NCBI GenBank assembly: GCA_937127165.1
Contig: CAKZLR010000018.1
Location: 1-34,346, forward strand
Length of the DNA stretch: 34,346 bases
From: an uncultured Candidatus Peregrinibacteria bacterium
GTDB lineage: Bacteria; Patescibacteriota; JACMRA01
Reading direction: 5' to 3'
Below the pieces are notes generated by a model. That model ran no database searches. It had not been told where the DNA came from and worked only from the letters and a program-made list of their open reading frames with translations. The translations under genes were made by a program, and so were the position numbers. This document shows positions 13,204 through 34,346 of this stretch, piece after piece. How positions within the stretch are numbered: position 1 is the stretch's first letter; every line of letters begins with the position of its first letter.

Positions 13204-15156
13204 TTATTTTGAAACTGAATTAAGTATAATATGGTTTTCTATTTTGTTCAAGTTATTTTCGTCAATTTGTTCAACTATTTCTGGTCTTATTTCTTGCACA
13301 CAACTTGGTGCGGCTCTCAAAGAGCCACTAATAAATTGCAGAATCGCTTTGATAGGTAAGTTGATGTGCTCATATTTAGCATACTCTAGTTTTTCTGATA
13401 AAAATCTAGGTTCAATATTGTTGATTAAGATAAAGTTAATCAGCTCTAAGAACAGATCTAAAGTGTTTTGTAAATCTGGTGGTAAATCTCTACCTTTAAG
13501 AGATACAATCCTAGGACCCCTTGCATCATATGTAATCGTGAGCAACATATCCCCATAATCAGTAGTTTTAAGTAGCTGTTCTAATTTTAGCACATACTTA
13601 GATAAAGAACCTAAGTTAGTTGCCAAAATTTCAGGTTTGTATTGGTGATGAGTGGTGTTTGGGGTTATTTGATAGTTTTCTGGTGGAAGTTTAGATTCTA
13701 ATTCCTGTTGTTTTTTAATAGCTTGCTTAAGAGTATTTTGTAATTCTAAAATGATAGAGCGTTGAGAACTGGCCTTTTGAATCAAAATTTGTATATATTG
13801 AGGCAATTCTTTTGAATCTAAATCGACCCATTCAAGCTTATTACTATTTGCAAAATATTTAGAGTCTATTAAAAACCCTAAGTGTAAAGTGGATTCTTTT
13901 GTTTCTTTAATTTCTGTTGTAGAAACCAAACTAGAAGTAACAGTGCCATAGAAATCAAAATATTCGTTCAGAAAGCTTTGTAAAACCTCTTCAGATTCTT
14001 TATTTTCTTTAAAATTGGTTGATGGAAGCTTAATCACACCTTCAGACCGTTTGTCAATAGCTATCAAATTCTTATTAAAATTTATTATCAGAGCATTCAA
14101 AACTATTTGTGATTTTGGCTCTATTGTTGATTTTTCTCGTTGGTTGATTGTAGCTAAAAGATCTGACAATTCGACAACTGACAACTCATTTTCGTTCCAT
14201 AATTTTTCTTCAGTTTCTTTATTTCCGTCAGTTAATCTATAAAGAGTTTGATTTTTTTCTGGTTGGACATCAATATCAACCACTTGTAAAATTTTAGATT
14301 GACCATCAATTGTTACTCTAACAAGTTCACCAATTTGAAACATCGGTTCATCTATCTTAGGTAGATCGGTTTTGGTAATTACAGGGTGATTATCGTCTTG
14401 TGAAGAAGTAAATTGTGTAGTATCAATAGTGGTTGGGGGTGAGTATTGATCTCTATCACTCCAAACTTGCCAAGGTTGACTTTGAGGGAAAAGTAAAATA
14501 CTACTATTCCTTCTAGGAATTAATTCGAAGGGGCTTTGTAGGATTGTATTTTGGTCAAAAATCTTATAGAGATCTGTACCATTTTTAATTTCTCCTGTGT
14601 TTTTGTTATACCAAAACTCGAAAGATTTTGGTCTAAGGTGTTTTTTAATTTTTTCCCAGGCCAAGCAAGGACCTTTTTCTTCGGCTAACGATTCACTGGC
14701 TCGATAGGCTTTATTACTAATGAAGTTACCAATATAATTAATTATATCTAACTCGTTGATATGTTTGTTTTGTTCTAGAAAATCATCAAAATCAGCTATT
14801 CCAATAGCAATTTTTCGATATTGAGCGACTACAGCCAAAGCCTCAGGACTAAATTGAATTTTATCAAGTAAGGCATCCAAAAATCTAACAGCTGTCTCGA
14901 TTGTATCTTGTAAGAGACTTTCATCCAAAGCTTTTTGATTATCTAAATATTTACACAGTAGGATATCTCCATATGTGGTAGCAGGTTTAGTTTGGGTTTT
15001 GTCCTGATATAAAAGCTCTAATGTCTTGTTGCTAACAACAAAAAGTCTTCTGGCGTGTAATACTTCTGTATATTTCTTCTCCCAAAATTTTCTCAATTCC
15101 GGAGTACTCTCAGTTTCCGCTGCCAACTTAAGCAGTCTTTCCAAGACAGATGACAT
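13204..15156 (-). CDS. Chimeric RNR-derived protein: RNR-like, SH3-like, Nudix-like and TSCPD-like regions
   Basis: A 650-residue protein. Residues 25-50 (WEKKYTEVLHARRLFVVSN) resemble the N-terminal PNSPTLMNAG region of ribonucleotide reductase large subunits. Residues 63-170 resemble a C-terminal RNR segment: AVRFLDALLD (89-98), YRKIAIGIADFDDFL (113-127), AYRASESLAEEKGP (150-163), compare AVRFLDNVID, NRKIGLGVMGFADLL and AYxxSxELAxEKGPF. The central barrel with the catalytic NxCxE motif is absent. Residues 272-330 look SH3/KOW-like. Residues 350-450 look like a Nudix fold without its catalytic box (IKLPSTNFKENKESEEVL). A coiled coil spans 455-490, and 520-612 is TSCPD-like without cysteines. 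Reductase activity is therefore not expected; a regulatory or nucleotide-sensing role is inference. A strong promoter ends about 8 bases before the ATG. Confidence 0.7.
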   Translation of the reverse strand: MSSVLERLLKLAAETESTPELRKFWEKKYTEVLHARRLFVVSNKTLELLYQDKTQTKPATTYGDILLCKYLDNQKALDESLLQDTIETAVRFLDALLDKIQFSPEALAVVAQYRKIAIGIADFDDFLEQNKHINELDIINYIGNFISNKAYRASESLAEEKGPCLAWEKIKKHLRPKSFEFWYNKNTGEIKNGTDLYKIFDQNTILQSPFELIPRRNSSILLFPQSQPWQVWSDRDQYSPPTTIDTTQFTSSQDDNHPVITKTDLPKIDEPMFQIGELVRVTIDGQSKILQVVDIDVQPEKNQTLYRLTDGNKETEEKLWNENELSVVELSDLLATINQREKSTIEPKSQIVLNALIINFNKNLIAIDKRSEGVIKLPSTNFKENKESEEVLQSFLNEYFDFYGTVTSSLVSTTEIKETKESTLHLGFLIDSKYFANSNKLEWVDLDSKELPQYIQILIQKASSQRSIILELQNTLKQAIKKQQELESKLPPENYQITPNTTHHQYKPEILATNLGSLSKYVLKLEQLLKTTDYGDMLLTITYDARGPRIVSLKGRDLPPDLQNTLDLFLELINFILINNIEPRFLSEKLEYAKYEHINLPIKAILQFISGSLRAAPSCVQEIRPEIVEQIDENNLNKIENHIILNSVSK

Positions 15157-16360: not shown

Positions 16361-19300
16361 TTAGTTATTTAAAAAATTAATTTTGGATTGTTGTTGATCT
16401 AACTCTTGTTTTCTTTGCAAAAGTTGTTGTCGTTTTTCAGTCACCACCTCAGGGTCGGCATTTTGTACAAAATTGGGATTTTGTAATTGGTTTTGTAAAA
16501 ACTCAATTTGAGTTTCCAAGTCTTTTATAATTTTGTTAGTTCTGTTAACTTCAGTTTGCTTGTTTGGGATATAAGCTAGAATATCCAAAGAGTATTCATA
16601 ACCCTCTTTTTGAACACTATACAATCCCTGCTTTTGTTCTGGTACTATCTCGCTTCTGGTTGTTATCTGGATAAACTTACTGTATTTATTAAGCAATACT
16701 GATTGGGAATATACTTGAATTGATTTGGCAGGATCAATAGCAAACAAACCTCGAGTGGAACGGAGATCTTGAATAAATCTAATAATTGCAGCAAACTCTT
16801 CAGCTTGAACCTGACTATTAGGGTTTTTTGACCACAACTGGCGGTACTGCTCATTTCTCTCGAGAGCAAAAGCTAAAAGGCTTGTTTGGCCAAAAAATTC
16901 CGACCACAAAACTTCTGTTTCAAAAGGTATAAACGGTGAAACTGTGATGATAAATTGCTGAAATAGACTTTTTGCAAAAGCAACCTGTGTTTCGTCTGTT
17001 TTTAGATACTCAATATACCAATCAGCAAAATTGTCCCACAAAAAGCCATACAAAACATCAACCGAGTGAGCTAGTTCGTAGTTTTGTAGATTATGCTCTA
17101 AGTTATCTTGTAAATCTAAATATTTTTGCAAAATCCACCACGAAGCGGAGGCTAGTGATTCTGGTGATAAAAATATTTCGTTTGATACTGGGTTTGTTTT
17201 TAAGAAGGTAGATTTAGGTTTTTCTAGAGCTGTTGTAACTTTTTCTTGCCAATTTCCACTTTTGAATTCTAAAAAACGAGCAACATTCCAAATTTTATTA
17301 CCAAAGTTCCGGTATTTCTCCATTAAACGATCGGCTAAATTACCACCAAATCGCATATTTCTTCCCGGAATCATACCACTCAGCATTGATAGTCTAAGGG
17401 AGTCACTAGAAAATTTAGCGATAGCTTCTCCGGGCTCTAAACCATTTTTCAAAGACTTACTCATTTTACGACCTTTTTCATCCAAAATAGTAGGAGTAAT
17501 TACTAGATTTTCAAAGGGAACACGATTAGTAAAATATTTACCCAAAGTGATCATTCTAACTATCCATAAATAAAAAATCTCTTTGGCCGTAACCATGGTT
17601 TGGGTTGGGTAAAATTCTTCAAAATCAACTTTTTTAGCCAAATTTTGTTCCATTAGTTGGTTGTTAAACTCAGTTCTAAAATTAGTAGAAAATTTGTTTA
17701 GCACAAACTCAATACTTTCTTCAAATCCATTAATTATTTTGCCTTTAACATCTTTTAAATCGACCCACTTAGTAGTTTGATAATCCGCGCAAACACCCTC
17801 TTTTTCGGACTCAGTTTCTACATAGAAAAGATTAGATTCAAGTCGAATGTTTTGCAATTCGTTATTTTTGTAAAAATTGAATCCAAGAAAAATTTTACCT
17901 ACAAAATCCAACTTAGTTATTTCGTTCCTACTTATACCGGTTTCTTCTTCAAATTCTCTTAAAAGGGTTTTTTGAGCAGTTTCACCAAGCTCTAACTTAC
18001 CACCAACTAAATGATATTCAGCTTTTTCTTCACTCACATTTCTGAGTATATCCCAGTTTATTTTGGGAAATAGTAGTTTTTTGGTTTTAGGATTATAAAT
18101 AATTGCATGAGCCCCAAACCGGTTTTGGAAATGCTGGTCCAAACTAATATATTTGGAAAAAGTATAAAAGTAGTTACTATATAAAATATAGTCTTCAATT
18201 TCGGGAAAATGTGGGATATTGAAATGAGCTCGATTATCAAAAATAAACCGCTTGCTGGTTGGCAACCGAGATATTATTTGATTAAATTGCTCAAACGGAA
18301 CAATCTGATCGTCGGTGGAGTGATAGACAAAAATTTGCTCACAGTTTTCTTTGATTAAATCAAGTTCGGTTTGAATCTCAAAAGTATAAGCATCAGTGCA
18401 AGCTGCCACCAAATGAAGTTGCTTCACTTTGAGAGAGTTTTCGGATAGATATTTGAGTAAAAAGTTACCACCAAGACTGTGACCAACTAAAAATAGTTCA
18501 TTTTCTGGATCAATTTGAGCAATATATTTTTCAAACCAAATCTTCCAAGCTTCATAATTGGCATTTTGTTTGTTTGGCATTTGTGGGTAAAACACTTCTA
18601 TTCCAGCACTGGAGAGTTTGGTAAACAAGTTGATTTTCCAGTCGATTTTTTGCTGGCGAATGTCTATCTCTCTTTGCTTCAGCTCCTCCAGCATTTCTTG
18701 GTCAGTTTTAAAAGCATCTCCACCACCAACTATTACTACAGTTTTTTGAGGTTTAACTGTTTCCACGAAATCCAAAGTAGATAGCGGCCAAAGCGAGGAT
18801 GAAAACCAAGTATCTAAAATTTTGCTTTCTTGTACCCAGTTTCCAGGTAAATCAGGCTTATTTGGACTAACTTGGAATTTGTGCCTAATTTCAGGATTTT
18901 TCAACCACTCTTGATAACTAAAAAATTTTTTTTCTGGATTGGTGTCTAAATTATACCACACAGGAATTTTATGACCCCAGGTAAGATCTCGAGAAATACA
19001 CCAATCAAGAACATTTTGGATAAAATTTTGACCTCTTTGTCTAAATTCACTAGGATAAAAATTAACCTCATCTAAACCTTTAAGGGTTAGTTTTTGTAAG
19101 TTGGTTTTTTTGCTAAACAACTTGTGAATATCCTCAAACTTGTCCAGAATTTGACTTTCTGGTAGTATTTCAAGTAATTTATCTTTACCTGCCCAGCCCC
19201 AGCTGCAACCAATAATTTTGGTTTTGTCCATAAAGTTCTGTAATTCAATCACATCATCTTTAGTGTCAGTAAAATAGTAAACTTGTGTGGGAGATATACC

Positions 19301-19924
19301 CCAATCTTTACAAACTTGAGTGATTTTTTCCTCCTTGGAGTGGTTATCCTCTCTACCTAAAATGTGAGTGAAGTTTAACTTACAATTTCTGATTTTCGGT
19401 AAAATTAACAACTCTTTTGAAGAACTAGAAACAATTGCAAGTCTTGTGTTTGAGATTTTAGCAATTTCGTTAACGAACCCTTCAAATAGACAAAACTCTT
19501 TATTAGCCATGTACCTTATAAAATTCCAACTGGCAACAGCCTGCTGTTCAAACTCTTCTTGGCTCAGTCCATGATTTTTATGATGTCTGGGTTTATCAAA
19601 ATATTCATCTCTCATTTCCTTAGCTTTTTTGTAGTCACCACCGGCTCTCAGCTCAGCCCAACAAGCTAAATTAGCTTCGTCGGAATCGGCTAGTACTCCG
19701 TCATAATCAAAAATTAAATACTTAGTTTCTGCACACGAAGAATGATCAAACTCTTTGTGGTAGCTGAGAAAAAATTCATCACTAATCAACGGTTCAATAA
19801 CTGTTTTGGATCTTTCACAAATAGACACATTATGTTCATAGTTCCAGTCCACTTGGAATTGTGTAAACCGTTCTTTTAATTCAGAAACCCTTTTTTGATA
19901 GTCTGCCTCGCTAAAGTTATTCAT
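16361..19924 (-). CDS. Valyl-tRNA synthetase C-terminal part with inserted HAD, alpha/beta-hydrolase and Nudix domains
   Basis: A 1187-residue protein. ValRS pieces are residues 29-60 (HNVSICERSKTVIEPLIS, end of the editing domain), 284-386 (LDWCISRDLTWGHKIPVWY, ILDTWFSSSLWPLSTL), 755-890 (FYPTQTMVTAKEIFYLWIVR, KMSKS at 820-824), the helical anticodon-binding domain to about 1040, and a C-terminal coiled coil (about 1125-1180). Inserted between them: a HAD phosphatase at 67-270 (FDYDGVLADSD with Asp73 and Asp75; Asp220 and Asp224 in TDTKDD); an RBBP9/YdeN-like alpha/beta-hydrolase at 393-595 (GHSLGG with Ser483; Asp538 or Asp539; His567); and a Nudix domain at about 603-745 with a perfect box (Gly642, Glu648, Arg656-Glu657, Glu660-Glu661, Gly663). 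The N-terminal half with the HIGH motif is missing; an in-frame TAA lies about 30 bases upstream of the ATG. It may pair with a separate N-terminal subunit encoded elsewhere. The inserts' activities are inferred from motifs. Confidence 0.88.
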   Translation of the reverse strand: MNNFSEADYQKRVSELKERFTQFQVDWNYEHNVSICERSKTVIEPLISDEFFLSYHKEFDHSSCAETKYLIFDYDGVLADSDEANLACWAELRAGGDYKKAKEMRDEYFDKPRHHKNHGLSQEEFEQQAVASWNFIRYMANKEFCLFEGFVNEIAKISNTRLAIVSSSSKELLILPKIRNCKLNFTHILGREDNHSKEEKITQVCKDWGISPTQVYYFTDTKDDVIELQNFMDKTKIIGCSWGWAGKDKLLEILPESQILDKFEDIHKLFSKKTNLQKLTLKGLDEVNFYPSEFRQRGQNFIQNVLDWCISRDLTWGHKIPVWYNLDTNPEKKFFSYQEWLKNPEIRHKFQVSPNKPDLPGNWVQESKILDTWFSSSLWPLSTLDFVETVKPQKTVVIVGGGDAFKTDQEMLEELKQREIDIRQQKIDWKINLFTKLSSAGIEVFYPQMPNKQNANYEAWKIWFEKYIAQIDPENELFLVGHSLGGNFLLKYLSENSLKVKQLHLVAACTDAYTFEIQTELDLIKENCEQIFVYHSTDDQIVPFEQFNQIISRLPTSKRFIFDNRAHFNIPHFPEIEDYILYSNYFYTFSKYISLDQHFQNRFGAHAIIYNPKTKKLLFPKINWDILRNVSEEKAEYHLVGGKLELGETAQKTLLREFEEETGISRNEITKLDFVGKIFLGFNFYKNNELQNIRLESNLFYVETESEKEGVCADYQTTKWVDLKDVKGKIINGFEESIEFVLNKFSTNFRTEFNNQLMEQNLAKKVDFEEFYPTQTMVTAKEIFYLWIVRMITLGKYFTNRVPFENLVITPTILDEKGRKMSKSLKNGLEPGEAIAKFSSDSLRLSMLSGMIPGRNMRFGGNLADRLMEKYRNFGNKIWNVARFLEFKSGNWQEKVTTALEKPKSTFLKTNPVSNEIFLSPESLASASWWILQKYLDLQDNLEHNLQNYELAHSVDVLYGFLWDNFADWYIEYLKTDETQVAFAKSLFQQFIITVSPFIPFETEVLWSEFFGQTSLLAFALERNEQYRQLWSKNPNSQVQAEEFAAIIRFIQDLRSTRGLFAIDPAKSIQVYSQSVLLNKYSKFIQITTRSEIVPEQKQGLYSVQKEGYEYSLDILAYIPNKQTEVNRTNKIIKDLETQIEFLQNQLQNPNFVQNADPEVVTEKRQQLLQRKQELDQQQSKINFLNN

Positions 19925-20133
19925 AGTAATGAAATTACTAATAATAGTTTCTGCTTAAACCAAATAGTTTTGTCAAACGTTAAGTTACAATCGACTATCT
20001 GAATAATTAAAATGACTTGAAAAGGATTGCAAACTGAGATATCTTATGGTGGAGTATTTATTTATAATTAATTTTCTTAGAACTTTCTTTTTCTATGTTT
20101 TATAGAAAATTTATAATTTATAAAATTATAAAA

Positions 20134-21450: not shown

Positions 21451-22770
21451 TTAAGATTCGACTTGGCTAATCAAAATTTTATTGATTTCAGGGAAGTCGG
21501 CAAGTCTTTGTTCACAGTTATTTATAAAGTGACTGGCAAAGTCGAGAATAGTTTGTTTTGAACGATAATTTTTGGTCAGGGTAATAATTTGGCATGTTGG
21601 ATATTTTTTTCTGAAATCTAAAATATTTTTTAAATAAGCTCCTTGAAATTTAAAAATTGACTGGTCATCATCTCCGACTACCATCAAGTTCGGTCTATTA
21701 TTAGTTAGTTTTGTGTCAACTAACATGTCAATAAGTTTAGTCTGCACACCACTAGTGTCTTGAAATTCGTCAACCAAAATATATAAAAACTGTTCTTGAT
21801 AATTGTATCTAAGCTCTTTGTAAGTTTCAAAAGCTTTTAACACTTCAAAAAGCATATCCTCAAAATCAAATAATTTAGACTGGTGCAAACCTTCTTGATA
21901 CTTTTTATAAATTCTAGCTAAAGAGCGGTATTTTTTATGGTTAAGGTCGGCTTTTAACCTATATTTTTTGTCTTCATCAACTTTACAAAAACTGTTTCTC
22001 CATGAAGTTAATTTAGTTGTTGAAGGATTTTGTTGAGCTTCAATTTCGTCCACAGTCTTTTGCAAACTCTCTATTACTAGTTTTTTAAGGCTATAATTTG
22101 GCTGTTTTTCGTCAAAGTTAATCTGTCTCAGGGGTTCAATCAAGTCTTGGCGAGCTTTTGATAGTAAAACTTTATTTATTTTCCCAACAAAAAAGTCTTT
22201 GATAATATTTCTAGCCTGAGAAATAAAAGTTTCGTTGTCGTCCAAAATTTGTTCAAAATCTTCGGGGGTTATACCTTCTTTTTTTAGATCCCTAATTCTA
22301 GATCTGATAGAGTCTAAATAAGTCCAACCTTCTTTAGAATTGTGTTGGTTGAGAGGATCATCATGGTCAAAAGTATTAAAAATACTTTGCAAAATTTCAA
22401 TTGAAGCTAAGTCATCAGCCGGCATATACTTAGCTCCGGAAAAAAAATATTCGGGGTTATGACTAATCACTTCGGTTCCAAAACTATGAAAAGTGTGAAT
22501 ATACACTTTGCTAGCCTGTGATCCAATAATCTTGATTAATCTTTCTCTCATATTTACAGCCGCTGAGTCTGTGAAAGTAAGACAAAGAATAGACTCTGGC
22601 AAAGTATCTGTTTCCCTGAGAATGTTGGCTACTCTCATGCTAAGTAATTCTGTTTTACCTGTCCCCGGACCAGCTACGACCATCACTGGACCATCGATTG
22701 TGTCAACGGCTTGTCTTTGTTCCGAGTTAAGCCGTTGATATTTTTGCCAGAAAATTCGGTTAAAATTCAT
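21451..22770 (-). CDS. UvrD/Rep-type helicase, N-terminal half only
   Basis: A superfamily 1A DNA helicase fragment of 439 residues. Motifs in order: Q motif (LNSEQRQAV), Walker A AGPGTGKT (33-40), motif Ia (LTFTDSAA), motif Ib (VYIHTFHSFG), motif II LVDEFQD (Asp334, Glu335), motif III GDDDQSIFKFQGA, and motif IV (LTKNYRSKQTIL). The protein ends about 35 residues later with a TAA, so motifs V and VI and the rest of domain 2A/2B are absent. Full-length relatives have about 650-1000 residues. The missing part does not follow in any frame: only 97 bases separate the stop from grpE. ATP hydrolysis and unwinding would need the missing arginine finger, so this is either a split helicase with its partner elsewhere, a regulatory fragment, or a relic with its frame intact. 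Confidence 0.88.
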   Translation of the reverse strand: MNFNRIFWQKYQRLNSEQRQAVDTIDGPVMVVAGPGTGKTELLSMRVANILRETDTLPESILCLTFTDSAAVNMRERLIKIIGSQASKVYIHTFHSFGTEVISHNPEYFFSGAKYMPADDLASIEILQSIFNTFDHDDPLNQHNSKEGWTYLDSIRSRIRDLKKEGITPEDFEQILDDNETFISQARNIIKDFFVGKINKVLLSKARQDLIEPLRQINFDEKQPNYSLKKLVIESLQKTVDEIEAQQNPSTTKLTSWRNSFCKVDEDKKYRLKADLNHKKYRSLARIYKKYQEGLHQSKLFDFEDMLFEVLKAFETYKELRYNYQEQFLYILVDEFQDTSGVQTKLIDMLVDTKLTNNRPNLMVVGDDDQSIFKFQGAYLKNILDFRKKYPTCQIITLTKNYRSKQTILDFASHFINNCEQRLADFPEINKILISQVES

Positions 22771-22817: not shown

Positions 22818-23248
22818 GACAAAGTCAAACACTATCCATTAAGATCAAATCAAGATTGATTTGATATTTGGTCTGGTTATGTACTAATTTGATTTCTAAA
22901 GAAAAACTGGTGTAATAAACTTGTTTATTCAAAATTTATTTAATTTTTACAAGTTTTACTTGTTACTTACAAGTTTTATTTAAAACTACAACAATAACAA
23001 TTGTTACCAATTTAATCAAAAAAAATTTTCTAATTTAATTCTTGTCAATTTTTAAAAAAATACTAGGTCCGGGTCTTACTTACTATTCTCACTATTTTTT
23101 GTGAGAACTTAATAAAAGACGATTTTTAAATTTTAAAATATATAATTATATAATATGAAAACTCTTCAGAGTTGTATTTGAAATTATAAAAACATTTATT
23201 CCTATTTACAACTAACATAACTCATAGACACTCTGTTAGATCGTGTAA
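22818..23248. other. AT-rich gap with two perfect inverted repeats
   Basis: No gene. The palindrome at 22844-22865 has arms ATCAAATCAA and TTGATTTGAT separated by GA. A second hairpin, TTCTCAC / GTGAGAA (23086-23092 and 23101-23107, loop TATTTTTT), may end transcription or fold in RNA. The rest is A/T tracts. Confidence 0.6.
22844..22865. repeat. Perfect 10-base inverted repeat, operator candidate
   Basis: Arms ATCAAATCAA and TTGATTTGAT are exact reverse complements with a 2-base centre (GA). It sits about 27 bases upstream of the helicase gene's -35 hexamer. The small centre fits a site for a dimeric DNA-binding protein better than an RNA hairpin. Confidence 0.55.
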
Positions 23249-23874
23249 TCATAAAAAAATGATTTCAGCAATATCCTTAGGATGCATAAACTTTGAAGTA
23301 TCAATTTTTGTTTGATTATCTAGGTTTTTAAATAAATTTGTATTTGTAGTTGCAGGATAAAAACCCATTACACGAATATTGATTCTTTTTTCCAACCTTC
23401 CCTGAAACCAGATATTCCGTATTTATTACTCATATAAACAGACTCTCTTGGCTTACCATCATATGGTGTTCTACCGGCTGAAGATACATTAAGGATTGTA
23501 CCATAATTTTGTTCTTTGAAAGTTGGCAAAAATACTTGTGTCGTGTATATAGTACCCATTAGATTTATTCTAATCATTTTTTCTATATGATCAGGATTTT
23601 GTTTGTCTAGATCACCAGTGTAATACACACCCGCATTATTTATCAAAACATCAACATTACCAATTTCCTTACGAGCACTTTCTAATATCGGATAGAGGCG
23701 ATCAGCTTCATATTCTAAATTGTATTCTATATTTTTAAGATTTGGATGTGTTATATTAACAGTATTTCTGCTAAGATTAAAGACTAGCCACTGCCTTTTT
23801 AAACACTTTTTTACAACTTCTAGTCCAATTCCAGAACTACCCCCAGTGATAACAATTCTTTTAAAGAAGAAATT
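23249..23874 (-). pseudogene. Short-chain dehydrogenase/reductase pseudogene
   Basis: Read leftward, one frame gives KRIVITGGSSGIGLEVVKK (the TGxxxGIG cofactor motif), DVLINNAGVYYTGDLD (NNAG), ILNVSSAG (catalytic Ser) and YMSNKYGISGF (YxxxK with an extra residue, so the catalytic Tyr-Lys spacing should be checked). After FREGWKKES the frame ends at a stop. A shift at the A-run near 23388 restores INIRVMGFYPATTNTNLF and KFMHPKDIAEIIFL, ending at TGA 23249-23251. No ATG stands where the protein should begin: the codon before KRIVITGG is TTT and no in-frame ATG lies nearby. So both the start and the reading frame are damaged, and the C-terminus is short. The substrate is unknown. The remaining similarity is high, so inactivation looks recent. 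Confidence 0.8.
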
Positions 23875-31620: not shown

Positions 31621-34346
31621 ATGAACCAAGACTCAAACCAAAATAATCAAGTTGACAATATTGAGACTCAATCTACCCATCCTTATAAGGATATCGAGAC
31701 TTATTGGCAGAAACTTTGGTTTGAAAATAACCTTTACCGGGCCGTTGATTTTGATGATCGTCCTAAAAAATATATTTTAACCGAATTTCCTTACCCATCG
31801 GGTGTTAGTTTGCATATTGGTCATGTTTTTCGTTATACAGTACCGGATGTATACGCTAGGTTTTTAAGAATGAATGGTTATAACGTGCTTTTTCCGATGG
31901 GTTGGGATGCTTTTGGTTTACCCACTGAGGAGCGAGCTAGGAAGGAAGGCAAGAATCCCAAGATCATCACTAAAGAAAACATTGCTAACTTTAAGCAACA
32001 AGTTCTGCGAATGGGTTATGGTTTTGACTGGGACAGAGAGTTTTCTACAACTGATGAAAATTATTACAAGTGGACTCAGTGGATTTTTGGCGAGTTTTAT
32101 AAAGCTGGTTTAGCCGAACAAAAAGAAACTGAAGTGTGGTGGTGTCCTGAAATGGGGACTGTGTTGTCTAACGAAGAGGTGTTAGATGGTCCAAATGGAA
32201 CCAAAATTAGTGAACGAGGTGAGTATCCGGTTTATCGCAAAAAGATGAAGCAGTGGGTTTTGAGGATGCCAGAATATGCCGAAAAATTACTTAGCGGTCT
32301 AGAAGAAACTCATTTTCCAGAACATGTTAAGGAGATGCAACGAAATTGGATTGGTAAAAGCGAAGGTTGCACGGTCAGATGGGAAGTAGAAACAACTACA
32401 AAAAGCAGAAAGCAGAAAGCAAAAATTGTAATTTTACACGGTTTTCGAGGTAGTTCCCAGAGTATTTATATTCCTTGGCTTAAATCTAGGTTAGAAGACT
32501 TTGGTTGTGAAGTAGTGGCTTTGGATTTGCCTAATTTTACAGATCCAGACGAACAAGAATGTGTTGATTTCGTTTTAAACTCAGTTAAATTTGGCAACAA
32601 CACAATCATTTTAGGTCATAGTCTTGGTTCTGTACTAGCCCTCAAAGTTTTAGAAAAACTAGATCAGCCGATTTTAGGTTTGGTTACCACTGGCGGCTTT
32701 GTGTCTCCAGACTTTTTGGACAAAAACATCAATGTGCGGCCGTTTACCCATAAGTGGAATTGGAATTTTGACTTTGCAAAAATCAAGGCGAATACCACTT
32801 TTGTTAAGTGTTTGCAATCTTCTTCTGATCCAGTTATTTCTACCGCTCAAGCTCAGGCTTTGGTGCAAGCTGTGGAAGGCGAGCTGATAATTGTGGAAGC
32901 TAAAGGACATTTTAGTGATCAGATTGAACCTAGTGTTTGGAGTGTCTTTGAGCAAGTTTTACGAAAGGAAGCACTCCACCTTACAAGCATCTCTCAAGAG
33001 GAAAGTTTGATAGTTGAAACCTTTACTACCCGAGTTGATACCATCTTTGCGGTTACTTTTTTGGTGTTGTCTCCCGAGCATCCTTTGGTTTTACAACTAA
33101 CTATCGAGGAAAACTTACCAAAGGTACGAGTTTATTTGCAAGAAGTGCAAAACAAAAGTGACCGAGAAAGACAAATTGGGGCTGAAAAAACTGGAGTCTT
33201 TACCGGGAGTTATGCTATTAATCCAATTACAAAAGATAAAGTGCCAATTTGGATTAGTGATTATGTACTTGGCAGTTACGGTACTGGAGCGATTATGGCG
33301 GTTCCGGGGCACGATGAGCGAGATTTTGAGTTTGCCCAAAAGTTTGGGCTGAAAATTTTAGAAAACGTAAAACCCATAAGTGGAGAAAAAACTAGCAAAG
33401 TTTTTACTGATTACGGCGTTTTATTTAACTCAGGAGAGTATTCCGGTTTAACCAGTGAGGAGGCTAAAGAAAAATTAATCCAAAAATTGGAAGCTGAAGG
33501 CAGAGGTAAGCGAGAAATCAATTATAAATTCCGTGATTGGGTCTTTAGCCGTCAGCGATATTGGGGTGAGCCATTTCCGTTTGAGTATATTAAGATTAAA
33601 GATGGTTTAGTAGATTTTGAGAAACTAGACGAACAACTAAAAAACTCAGGTCGGATTGGTGTCGTTAACTGTGTTGTTGTTAATTCCCAAGGTCAAATTT
33701 TGCTTCAAAGGAGATCGGCGACTTTTGACTTGATTGGCGGGCATATAGGGGAAGGTGAAACTATTTCGCAGGCGATGCAACGAAAGATTAAAGAAGAGAT
33801 TGGTTGTGATCTAGGTCAAGTTTTGTATTATTTAGGCTTTACTGAAATGAATCTTAGTGAGGATAATAAAAAACTGAATTTTGTTTTTATAGTTACAGTT
33901 AAACATGAGCCAAAGATTCAAAAACCAGAAAAAGTTAGTGAGATGATGTGGGTCAAGGCTGACCAGATTTTAAATTTTGTTGTTCCTCAGTCTCAATATA
34001 CAGTTTATTTTCCTAGCTGGCAACAAAAAGATTTTGTGAAAGAATTTATAGCACAAAATAGAGATTCTTATATTGTTGATGTTTTGTCACAGGCTTTTGA
34101 TTGGATAAACAAAAATTTTTCGGGGTTATCTTTGACCGAAATTGACGGCGAGCTCCATAAGATCAGACTTCTTGATACTACTGAACTACCTTTAATTTTG
34201 CCGGATGTAGAAGACTATTTGCCGTCACCAGAAGGCCGATCTCCTCTTGGCAAGGTAGATTGGATAAACATTCGAGATGAGCAGGGTAGGGTGATTGGTC
34301 GACGAGAACCAGACACCATGCCTAACTGGGCTGGAAGTAGTTGGTA
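31621..34346 (+). CDS. leuS: Leucyl-tRNA synthetase with inserted alpha/beta-hydrolase and Nudix domains (3' end outside window)
   Basis: At least 908 residues, still open at the right edge. The LeuRS catalytic start is complete: YILTEFPYPSGVSLHIGHVFRY with HIGH at 65-68, and MGWDAFGLPTEERA. The editing domain has ETFTTRVDTIFAVTFLVLSPEHP (about 466-487) and YGTGAIMAVPGHDERDFEFA with the universal editing Asp565. Between TVRWEVE and this threonine-rich region lies an alpha/beta-hydrolase of the RBBP9/YdeN type, residues 266-450: VILHGFRGSS, GHSLGS (Ser334), Asp403, His430. After FRDWVFSRQRYWGEPFPFEY, where LeuRS normally has a small insertion, often zinc-binding, lies a Nudix domain (about 677-785) whose box is complete except that the Glu after Arg721 is Lys722. 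LeuRS then resumes (LPDVEDYLPSPEGRSPL, DTMPNWAGSSW). KMSKS and the anticodon domain lie beyond the window. ATG 31621 is the first start in this frame with a normal LeuRS N-terminus. Confidence 0.95.
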   Translation, partial: MNQDSNQNNQVDNIETQSTHPYKDIETYWQKLWFENNLYRAVDFDDRPKKYILTEFPYPSGVSLHIGHVFRYTVPDVYARFLRMNGYNVLFPMGWDAFGLPTEERARKEGKNPKIITKENIANFKQQVLRMGYGFDWDREFSTTDENYYKWTQWIFGEFYKAGLAEQKETEVWWCPEMGTVLSNEEVLDGPNGTKISERGEYPVYRKKMKQWVLRMPEYAEKLLSGLEETHFPEHVKEMQRNWIGKSEGCTVRWEVETTTKSRKQKAKIVILHGFRGSSQSIYIPWLKSRLEDFGCEVVALDLPNFTDPDEQECVDFVLNSVKFGNNTIILGHSLGSVLALKVLEKLDQPILGLVTTGGFVSPDFLDKNINVRPFTHKWNWNFDFAKIKANTTFVKCLQSSSDPVISTAQAQALVQAVEGELIIVEAKGHFSDQIEPSVWSVFEQVLRKEALHLTSISQEESLIVETFTTRVDTIFAVTFLVLSPEHPLVLQLTIEENLPKVRVYLQEVQNKSDRERQIGAEKTGVFTGSYAINPITKDKVPIWISDYVLGSYGTGAIMAVPGHDERDFEFAQKFGLKILENVKPISGEKTSKVFTDYGVLFNSGEYSGLTSEEAKEKLIQKLEAEGRGKREINYKFRDWVFSRQRYWGEPFPFEYIKIKDGLVDFEKLDEQLKNSGRIGVVNCVVVNSQGQILLQRRSATFDLIGGHIGEGETISQAMQRKIKEEIGCDLGQVLYYLGFTEMNLSEDNKKLNFVFIVTVKHEPKIQKPEKVSEMMWVKADQILNFVVPQSQYTVYFPSWQQKDFVKEFIAQNRDSYIVDVLSQAFDWINKNFSGLSLTEIDGELHKIRLLDTTELPLILPDVEDYLPSPEGRSPLGKVDWINIRDEQGRVIGRREPDTMPNWAGSSW

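Follow-up and report, generated by a model that had tools for sequence, protein, structure and literature searches.

Why does the valyl-tRNA synthetase (ValRS) gene of an uncultured Candidatus Peregrinibacteria bacterium begin more than a third of the way into its protein family model, and where is the rest of the enzyme encoded? The gene lies on contig G000:C18, which was analysed over its whole length of 34,346 bases (the window). The assembly to which it belongs, G000, comprises 938 kb in 68 contigs, with an estimated completeness of 84% and an estimated contamination of 0. An earlier interpretation made from the letters of the window alone (the sequence-only reading) had proposed a two-gene ValRS. 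The complementary gene has now been located on another contig. It is highly probable that valS of this organism underwent a genuine gene fission and that its products reassemble non-covalently, as do those of the split leucyl-tRNA synthetase (LeuRS) of Aquifex.

The two halves of valS

The window gene, open reading frame (ORF) 19924..16361 (-), is open over 1187 codons. Searches with hidden Markov models (HMMs) show that it covers positions 320-367, 365-470 and 470-861 of the 863-position ValRS model TIGR00422. The first ValRS residues, HNVSICERSKTVIEPL, are amino acids 31-46, and about 30 residues of a linker specific to this bacterial class precede them. The second half of the Rossmann fold is present, with KMSKS at amino acids 820-824, as are an anticodon-binding domain (Anticodon_1, PF08264; E 3.1e-16) and the Val-type C-terminal coiled coil (PF10458; E 9e-08). 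The sequence-only reading had correctly noted that the N-terminal half is absent, that an in-frame TAA (19957..19955) lies 30 bases before the ATG, and that no ValRS sequence directly adjoins the gene: a tblastn search of the 710 upstream bases with intact sister ValRSs was empty. It had also described the remaining 1187 codons as undamaged. The frame is indeed fully open, but roughly half of the protein is non-ValRS sequence, three inserted enzyme domains having been overlooked.

A search for a separate frame with HIGH and without KMSKS, the check that the sequence-only reading had suggested, identified a 387-residue ORF at G000:C28:3875-5038(-), in the middle of an 8.6-kb contig. It covers TIGR00422 positions 3-331 (E 4.1e-83), ends with TAA and lacks KMSKS. 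The HIGH motif is present as HAGH, together with the first Rossmann half, and the CP1 editing domain carries TVRPET and FGTGALKITP and matches the isolated Thermus thermophilus (Tth) editing domain 1wk9/1wka. Joined in silico and compared with the single-chain ValRS of the sister genome G003, the halves are complementary. The N-half occupies residues 1-408 and the C-half residues 432-985, with zero overlap, and the loss between them is confined to the class-specific linker. This linker is found in all examined members of the class and is absent from outgroup ValRSs.

The break had been placed inside the editing domain. It does adjoin that domain, but the N-half carries the domain to residue 140 of the crystallised 146/147-residue form (1wk9/1wka), so that the break falls at the C-terminal edge, within the class-specific linker, and not in the core. 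In Thermus numbering the alignment of the N-half stops at residue 331, and by the same offset the isolated domain ends at about 338. By alignment, the N-half comprises the first catalytic half and essentially the whole editing domain.

Sequence arithmetic places the halves at least about 18 kb apart, even were C18 and C28 adjacent. A complete valS elsewhere, which the sequence-only reading had named as an objection, was not found in the G000 assembly by HMM or BLAST; the remaining matches of the ValRS searches are related class I synthetases. Together the halves hold the motifs and domains expected of the ValRS family (TIGR00422, PRK05729). Neither half passes the curated TIGR00422 cut-off of 612.1 bits. 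Intact sister valS genes fall below it too, and the cut-off is therefore too strict for this class. The assembly contains two unlinked, complementary, constrained ORFs and no intact copy.

Fission or artefact

A break of this kind could arise in the assembly rather than in the genome, if a continuous gene had been split by two chimeric contigs or if contigs of two organisms had been binned together. The fragmented state of this metagenome-assembled genome is compatible with such an error, as is the GC content of C28, which is slightly above that of C18 (35.6% versus 32.4%). Both breaks, however, lie inside contigs, the ORFs have clean start and stop codons, and their contents complement each other. 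The nearest contig end is at least 3.5 kb from the N-half and more than 14 kb from the C-half, and a nearby scaffold edge, the second objection that had been raised, was accordingly dismissed. No words of 18 or more bases are shared by C18 and C28, which makes a repeat-driven chimera unlikely, and this candidate was also set aside. Both halves belong to the same class and are equally identical to their relatives, the estimated contamination is 0, and like fissions occur in sister genera, several at identical sites in independent genomes. An assembly or binning artefact is consequently regarded as very unlikely.

A natural rearrangement is the likely origin of the break, and 16% of the genome is outside the assembly. 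It could be argued from this that a recent inversion or translocation broke a valS that is now decaying, and that a second complete gene, native or acquired, does the work. Against decay, both ORFs are fully open, retain all motifs and are conserved like intact relatives. Both halves share 58% identity with the intact G003 ValRS over gap-filtered columns, and the G000 branches are the shortest of the class in both half trees (0.28 and 0.34), which indicates that neither half is decaying. No remnants of the other half were found beside either one, and no other ValRS was found in G000 by HMM or BLAST. The probability of a decaying gene is slighter still.

Covalent joining of the halves has also been considered, either by a split intein (protein trans-splicing) or by RNA trans-splicing. 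Cyanobacterial DnaE, the halves of which are joined by trans-splicing, provides the precedent. In G000 only about six residues of the N-half extend past the part of the editing domain that aligns, and residues 1-30 of the C-half can be aligned with the linker found in single-chain relatives. As no extra sequence is present at either terminus at the break, there is no room for intein halves, and a split intein was rejected. The lack of words of 18 or more bases common to both contigs also speaks against trans-splicing, to which only a minimal probability is assigned.

Genuine fission with non-covalent reassembly is thus the reading retained, and three points weigh against it. A single genome of the genus was examined, and the exact G000 break has been seen once. 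The split is read from gene sequences on the contigs of an incomplete, fragmented assembly. Finally, the AlphaFold model of the C-half is poor outside the hydrolase domain (mean pLDDT, the predicted local distance difference test, 54.9), because the alignment was shallow.

The proposed organization of the enzyme is as follows. (i) The C28 gene would supply the HIGH half of the Rossmann domain and the complete CP1 editing domain. (ii) The window gene would supply the KMSKS half, the anticodon-binding domain and the coiled coil. (iii) Joint folding of the two polypeptides, by way of the Rossmann core and the CP1 stalk, would make aminoacylation and editing possible again. We infer non-covalent association into a valine-charging, editing enzyme from the location of the cut, a linker bordering a domain. 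The position of the cut at a domain edge, within an already enlarged linker, further suggests the order of events: linker expansion, rearrangement and then fixation.

Inserted enzyme domains

Three enzyme domains lie between the ValRS segments of the C-half, with the motifs DYDGVLAD and GHSLGG and the full Nudix box intact. For the HAD domain, no relatives were found in the PDB at E 0.01. The closest solved relative of the alpha/beta hydrolase by sequence is RBBP9, and in the genome collection its relatives occur as proteins of their own, about 200 residues long and mostly from candidate-phyla-radiation genomes. At locus L060:3256-4362, within a mur gene cluster, a standalone RBBP9-like hydrolase gene stands immediately before a NUDIX-like gene, an order shared with the ValRS insert.

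Comparable insertions are found in other synthetases and other members of the group. The ValRS of G004 has a GNAT domain at the site of the G000 HAD domain, and a histidine-phosphatase domain is present in the ValRS of two more distant genomes. The window also encodes a LeuRS, 31621..34344 (+), cut by the contig end, into which an RBBP9-like serine hydrolase (amino acids 269-438) and a NUDIX domain (681-786) are inserted; the LeuRS of G003 contains NUDIX and Ham1 domains. Independently of the fissions, enzyme modules have been inserted into permissive loops of the class I synthetases of this class of bacteria. The HAD, RBBP9-like and NUDIX inserts are probably active passengers tethered to ValRS, which is the simplest reading; no evidence was found for a role of the inserts in valylation.

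Features of the window

Table 1. Positions of the valS C-half, its segments and a second split gene in the window.
Feature	Position	Strand	Basis
valS C-terminal half, 1187 aa: end of CP1, KMSKS half of catalytic domain, anticodon-binding domain, C-terminal coiled coil and three inserted enzyme domains	16361..19924	-	ORF, HMMs
In-frame TAA stop, 30 bases upstream of the C-half ATG	19955..19957	-	
aa 1-30: rest of the class-specific linker holding the break	19835..19924	-	joined halves aligned with intact sister ValRSs
aa 31-60: ValRS return segment after the editing domain, HNVSICERSKTVIEPLISDEFF	19745..19834	-	HMM, alignment
aa 70-255: inserted HAD_2 phosphatase-like domain, motif FDYDGVLAD intact	19160..19717	-	E 1.8e-10
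aa 261-391: ValRS catalytic segment with DTWFSSSLWP	18752..19144	-	HMM
aa 393-580: inserted RBBP9-like alpha/beta serine hydrolase, GHSLGG nucleophile motif intact	18185..18748	-	HMM; high-pLDDT model segment
aa 603-726: inserted NUDIX domain, complete Nudix box 17936-18004	17747..18118	-	E 1.9e-10
aa 764-893: second half of catalytic domain, KMSKS 17453-17467	17246..17635	-	HMM
aa 930-1071: anticodon-binding domain (Anticodon_1); own gene in two sister genera	16712..17137	-	
aa 1124-1177: Val_tRNA-synt_C tRNA-binding arm	16394..16555	-	
UvrD/AddA-like helicase N-terminal half, 439 aa, second split gene	21451..22770	-	

Two further genes of the window deserve mention. A short-chain dehydrogenase (TGGSSGIG; 23240-23870, -) has its frame broken by a frameshift near the C-terminus. 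For a 650-residue protein (13204-15156, -), the sole match is weak and confined to a piece of the ribonucleotide reductase barrel. Each of the six class genomes has a match of this kind, and most have a fuller ribonucleotide reductase match as well.

Probable recurrent fission in the class

Six genomes of the class, G000 to G005, were compared, each representing its own genus. Genome size and the relatives in the collection suggest that the class is part of the candidate phyla radiation (Patescibacteria). The ValRS gene is cut at a second site in G001 and G002, where an ORF of its own, starting with M[TN]EL.PASQWIL in both genomes, encodes the anticodon-binding and coiled-coil part; in G001 this ORF lies 3 kb away, beyond genes on both strands. 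The alanyl-tRNA synthetase (AlaRS) gene alaS is cut at a common place in G001-G005, and a second cut in G004 yields products of 308, 120 and 226 residues. Only G000 has a single-chain AlaRS (G000:C27, L159:198-2087). In sequence this AlaRS appears atypical of the class, and replacement by horizontal transfer is possible. G000, G004 and G005 share a cut at one place in the helicase gene pcrA, which is whole in G001-G003. The UvrD/AddA-like helicase is cut in G000 (22770..21451) and similarly in G004, and is one continuous frame of 1124-1150 residues in G001, G003 and G005; the C-half of the G000 protein is probably encoded on G000:C58. For dnaE, the C-terminal 140 positions give a weak match to a separate ORF in all six genomes (E about 1e-9 to 1e-11; for example G000:C25:13351-13779), and by this sequence evidence the gene may be split across the class. 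The rpoC gene is intact in each of the five genomes where it was found. The breakpoints in the sister genera lie inside contigs.

The valS gene of G005 (G005:C49, L044:1977-4913) presents a separate observation. A single in-frame TAG replaces the conserved E of SKTxxEPL, near the position of the G000 break. It could be a sequencing error, a mutation or another fission in progress.

The wider phylum served as a control. A single alaS frame exceeds the curated cut-off in 71 of 77 phylum genomes. Two of the other six are split members of the class, and in the remaining four (G009, G033, G037 and G082) the matches start at base 2-4 of a contig. Contig ends aside, alaS is intact outside the class in this sample. 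For valS, 119 of 145 phylum genomes exceed the cut-off. Partial ValRS genes in G108, G015, G018, G124 and G095 were rejected as fissions, as all stop at contig ends. No ValRS was detected at TIGR00422 in the near-complete genomes G032, G094, G085, G006 and G022, which could reflect loss, masking or divergence. The surveyed gene families are a non-random choice, and for this reason no genome-wide fission rate is claimed.

These comparisons make it likely that long essential genes undergo fission repeatedly in this class, which would then be a bacterial equivalent of the Nanoarchaeota. Cuts would fall at two sites in valS, two in alaS, one each in pcrA and the AddA-like helicase, and possibly also in dnaE. 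The products would be obligate multi-chain enzymes, and the synthetases would act as scaffolds for several inserted enzymes.

Relation to known split synthetases

The LeuRS alpha/beta of Aquifex aeolicus is the nearest paradigm. As described in PMC3436685 and PMC4975002 (citing Xu 2002 and Ma 2006), two genes encode this class I synthetase, and their products assemble. The G000 enzyme shares the two-gene arrangement and differs in being another synthetase, cut after the editing domain, with a C-half that carries three inserted enzymes. The Nanoarchaeota have several split essential genes, including AlaRS (NEQ211/NEQ547), with some sites shared and some lineage-specific (PMC3655853, Table 1); part of PMC4975002 also gives Nanoarchaeum AlaRS as a split synthetase. 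The class of G000 resembles them in its reduced genomes, in having several split essential genes and in the mixture of shared and lineage-specific sites (PMC3655853). The Nanoarchaeota, however, are archaeal, and a valS split is not listed in Table 1 of that paper.

In Altiarchaeales, according to the relevant part of PMC4975002, pheT is divided into two ORFs at non-adjacent loci, with mid-contig halves, and the arrangement is common to relatives. The G000 valS is likewise a synthetase gene cut into two non-adjacent, mid-contig ORFs, whereas the archaeal PheT belongs to class II, and that part of the paper does not mention inserted enzymes. An engineered split PheT of Mycoplasma pneumoniae, cut in a loop, supports growth; like the G000 ValRS it is a split synthetase subunit, but an artificial one (PMC12494982). 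The isoleucyl-tRNA synthetase with a GNAT domain (NCBIfam NF040702, ileS_w_GNAT) parallels the G000 ValRS as a class I synthetase with an extra enzyme domain. Both synthetase and domain are different, however, and the match here is weak and limited to the common catalytic part. No published split ValRS was found in the open-access literature, most subscription papers lying beyond that search.

Significance

Few split synthetases are known, and a split ValRS would add to them. Annotation and completeness tools will label such genes truncated or missing. For the three inserts a testable question arises: whether nucleotides or aminoacyl-tRNA are their substrates alongside ValRS, or whether they are mere passengers. 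A natural cut directly behind the editing domain would demonstrate that the active-site halves of a class I synthetase can come from separate polypeptides. With six genera cut at different sites, the order in which linker growth, cutting and separation took place becomes traceable.
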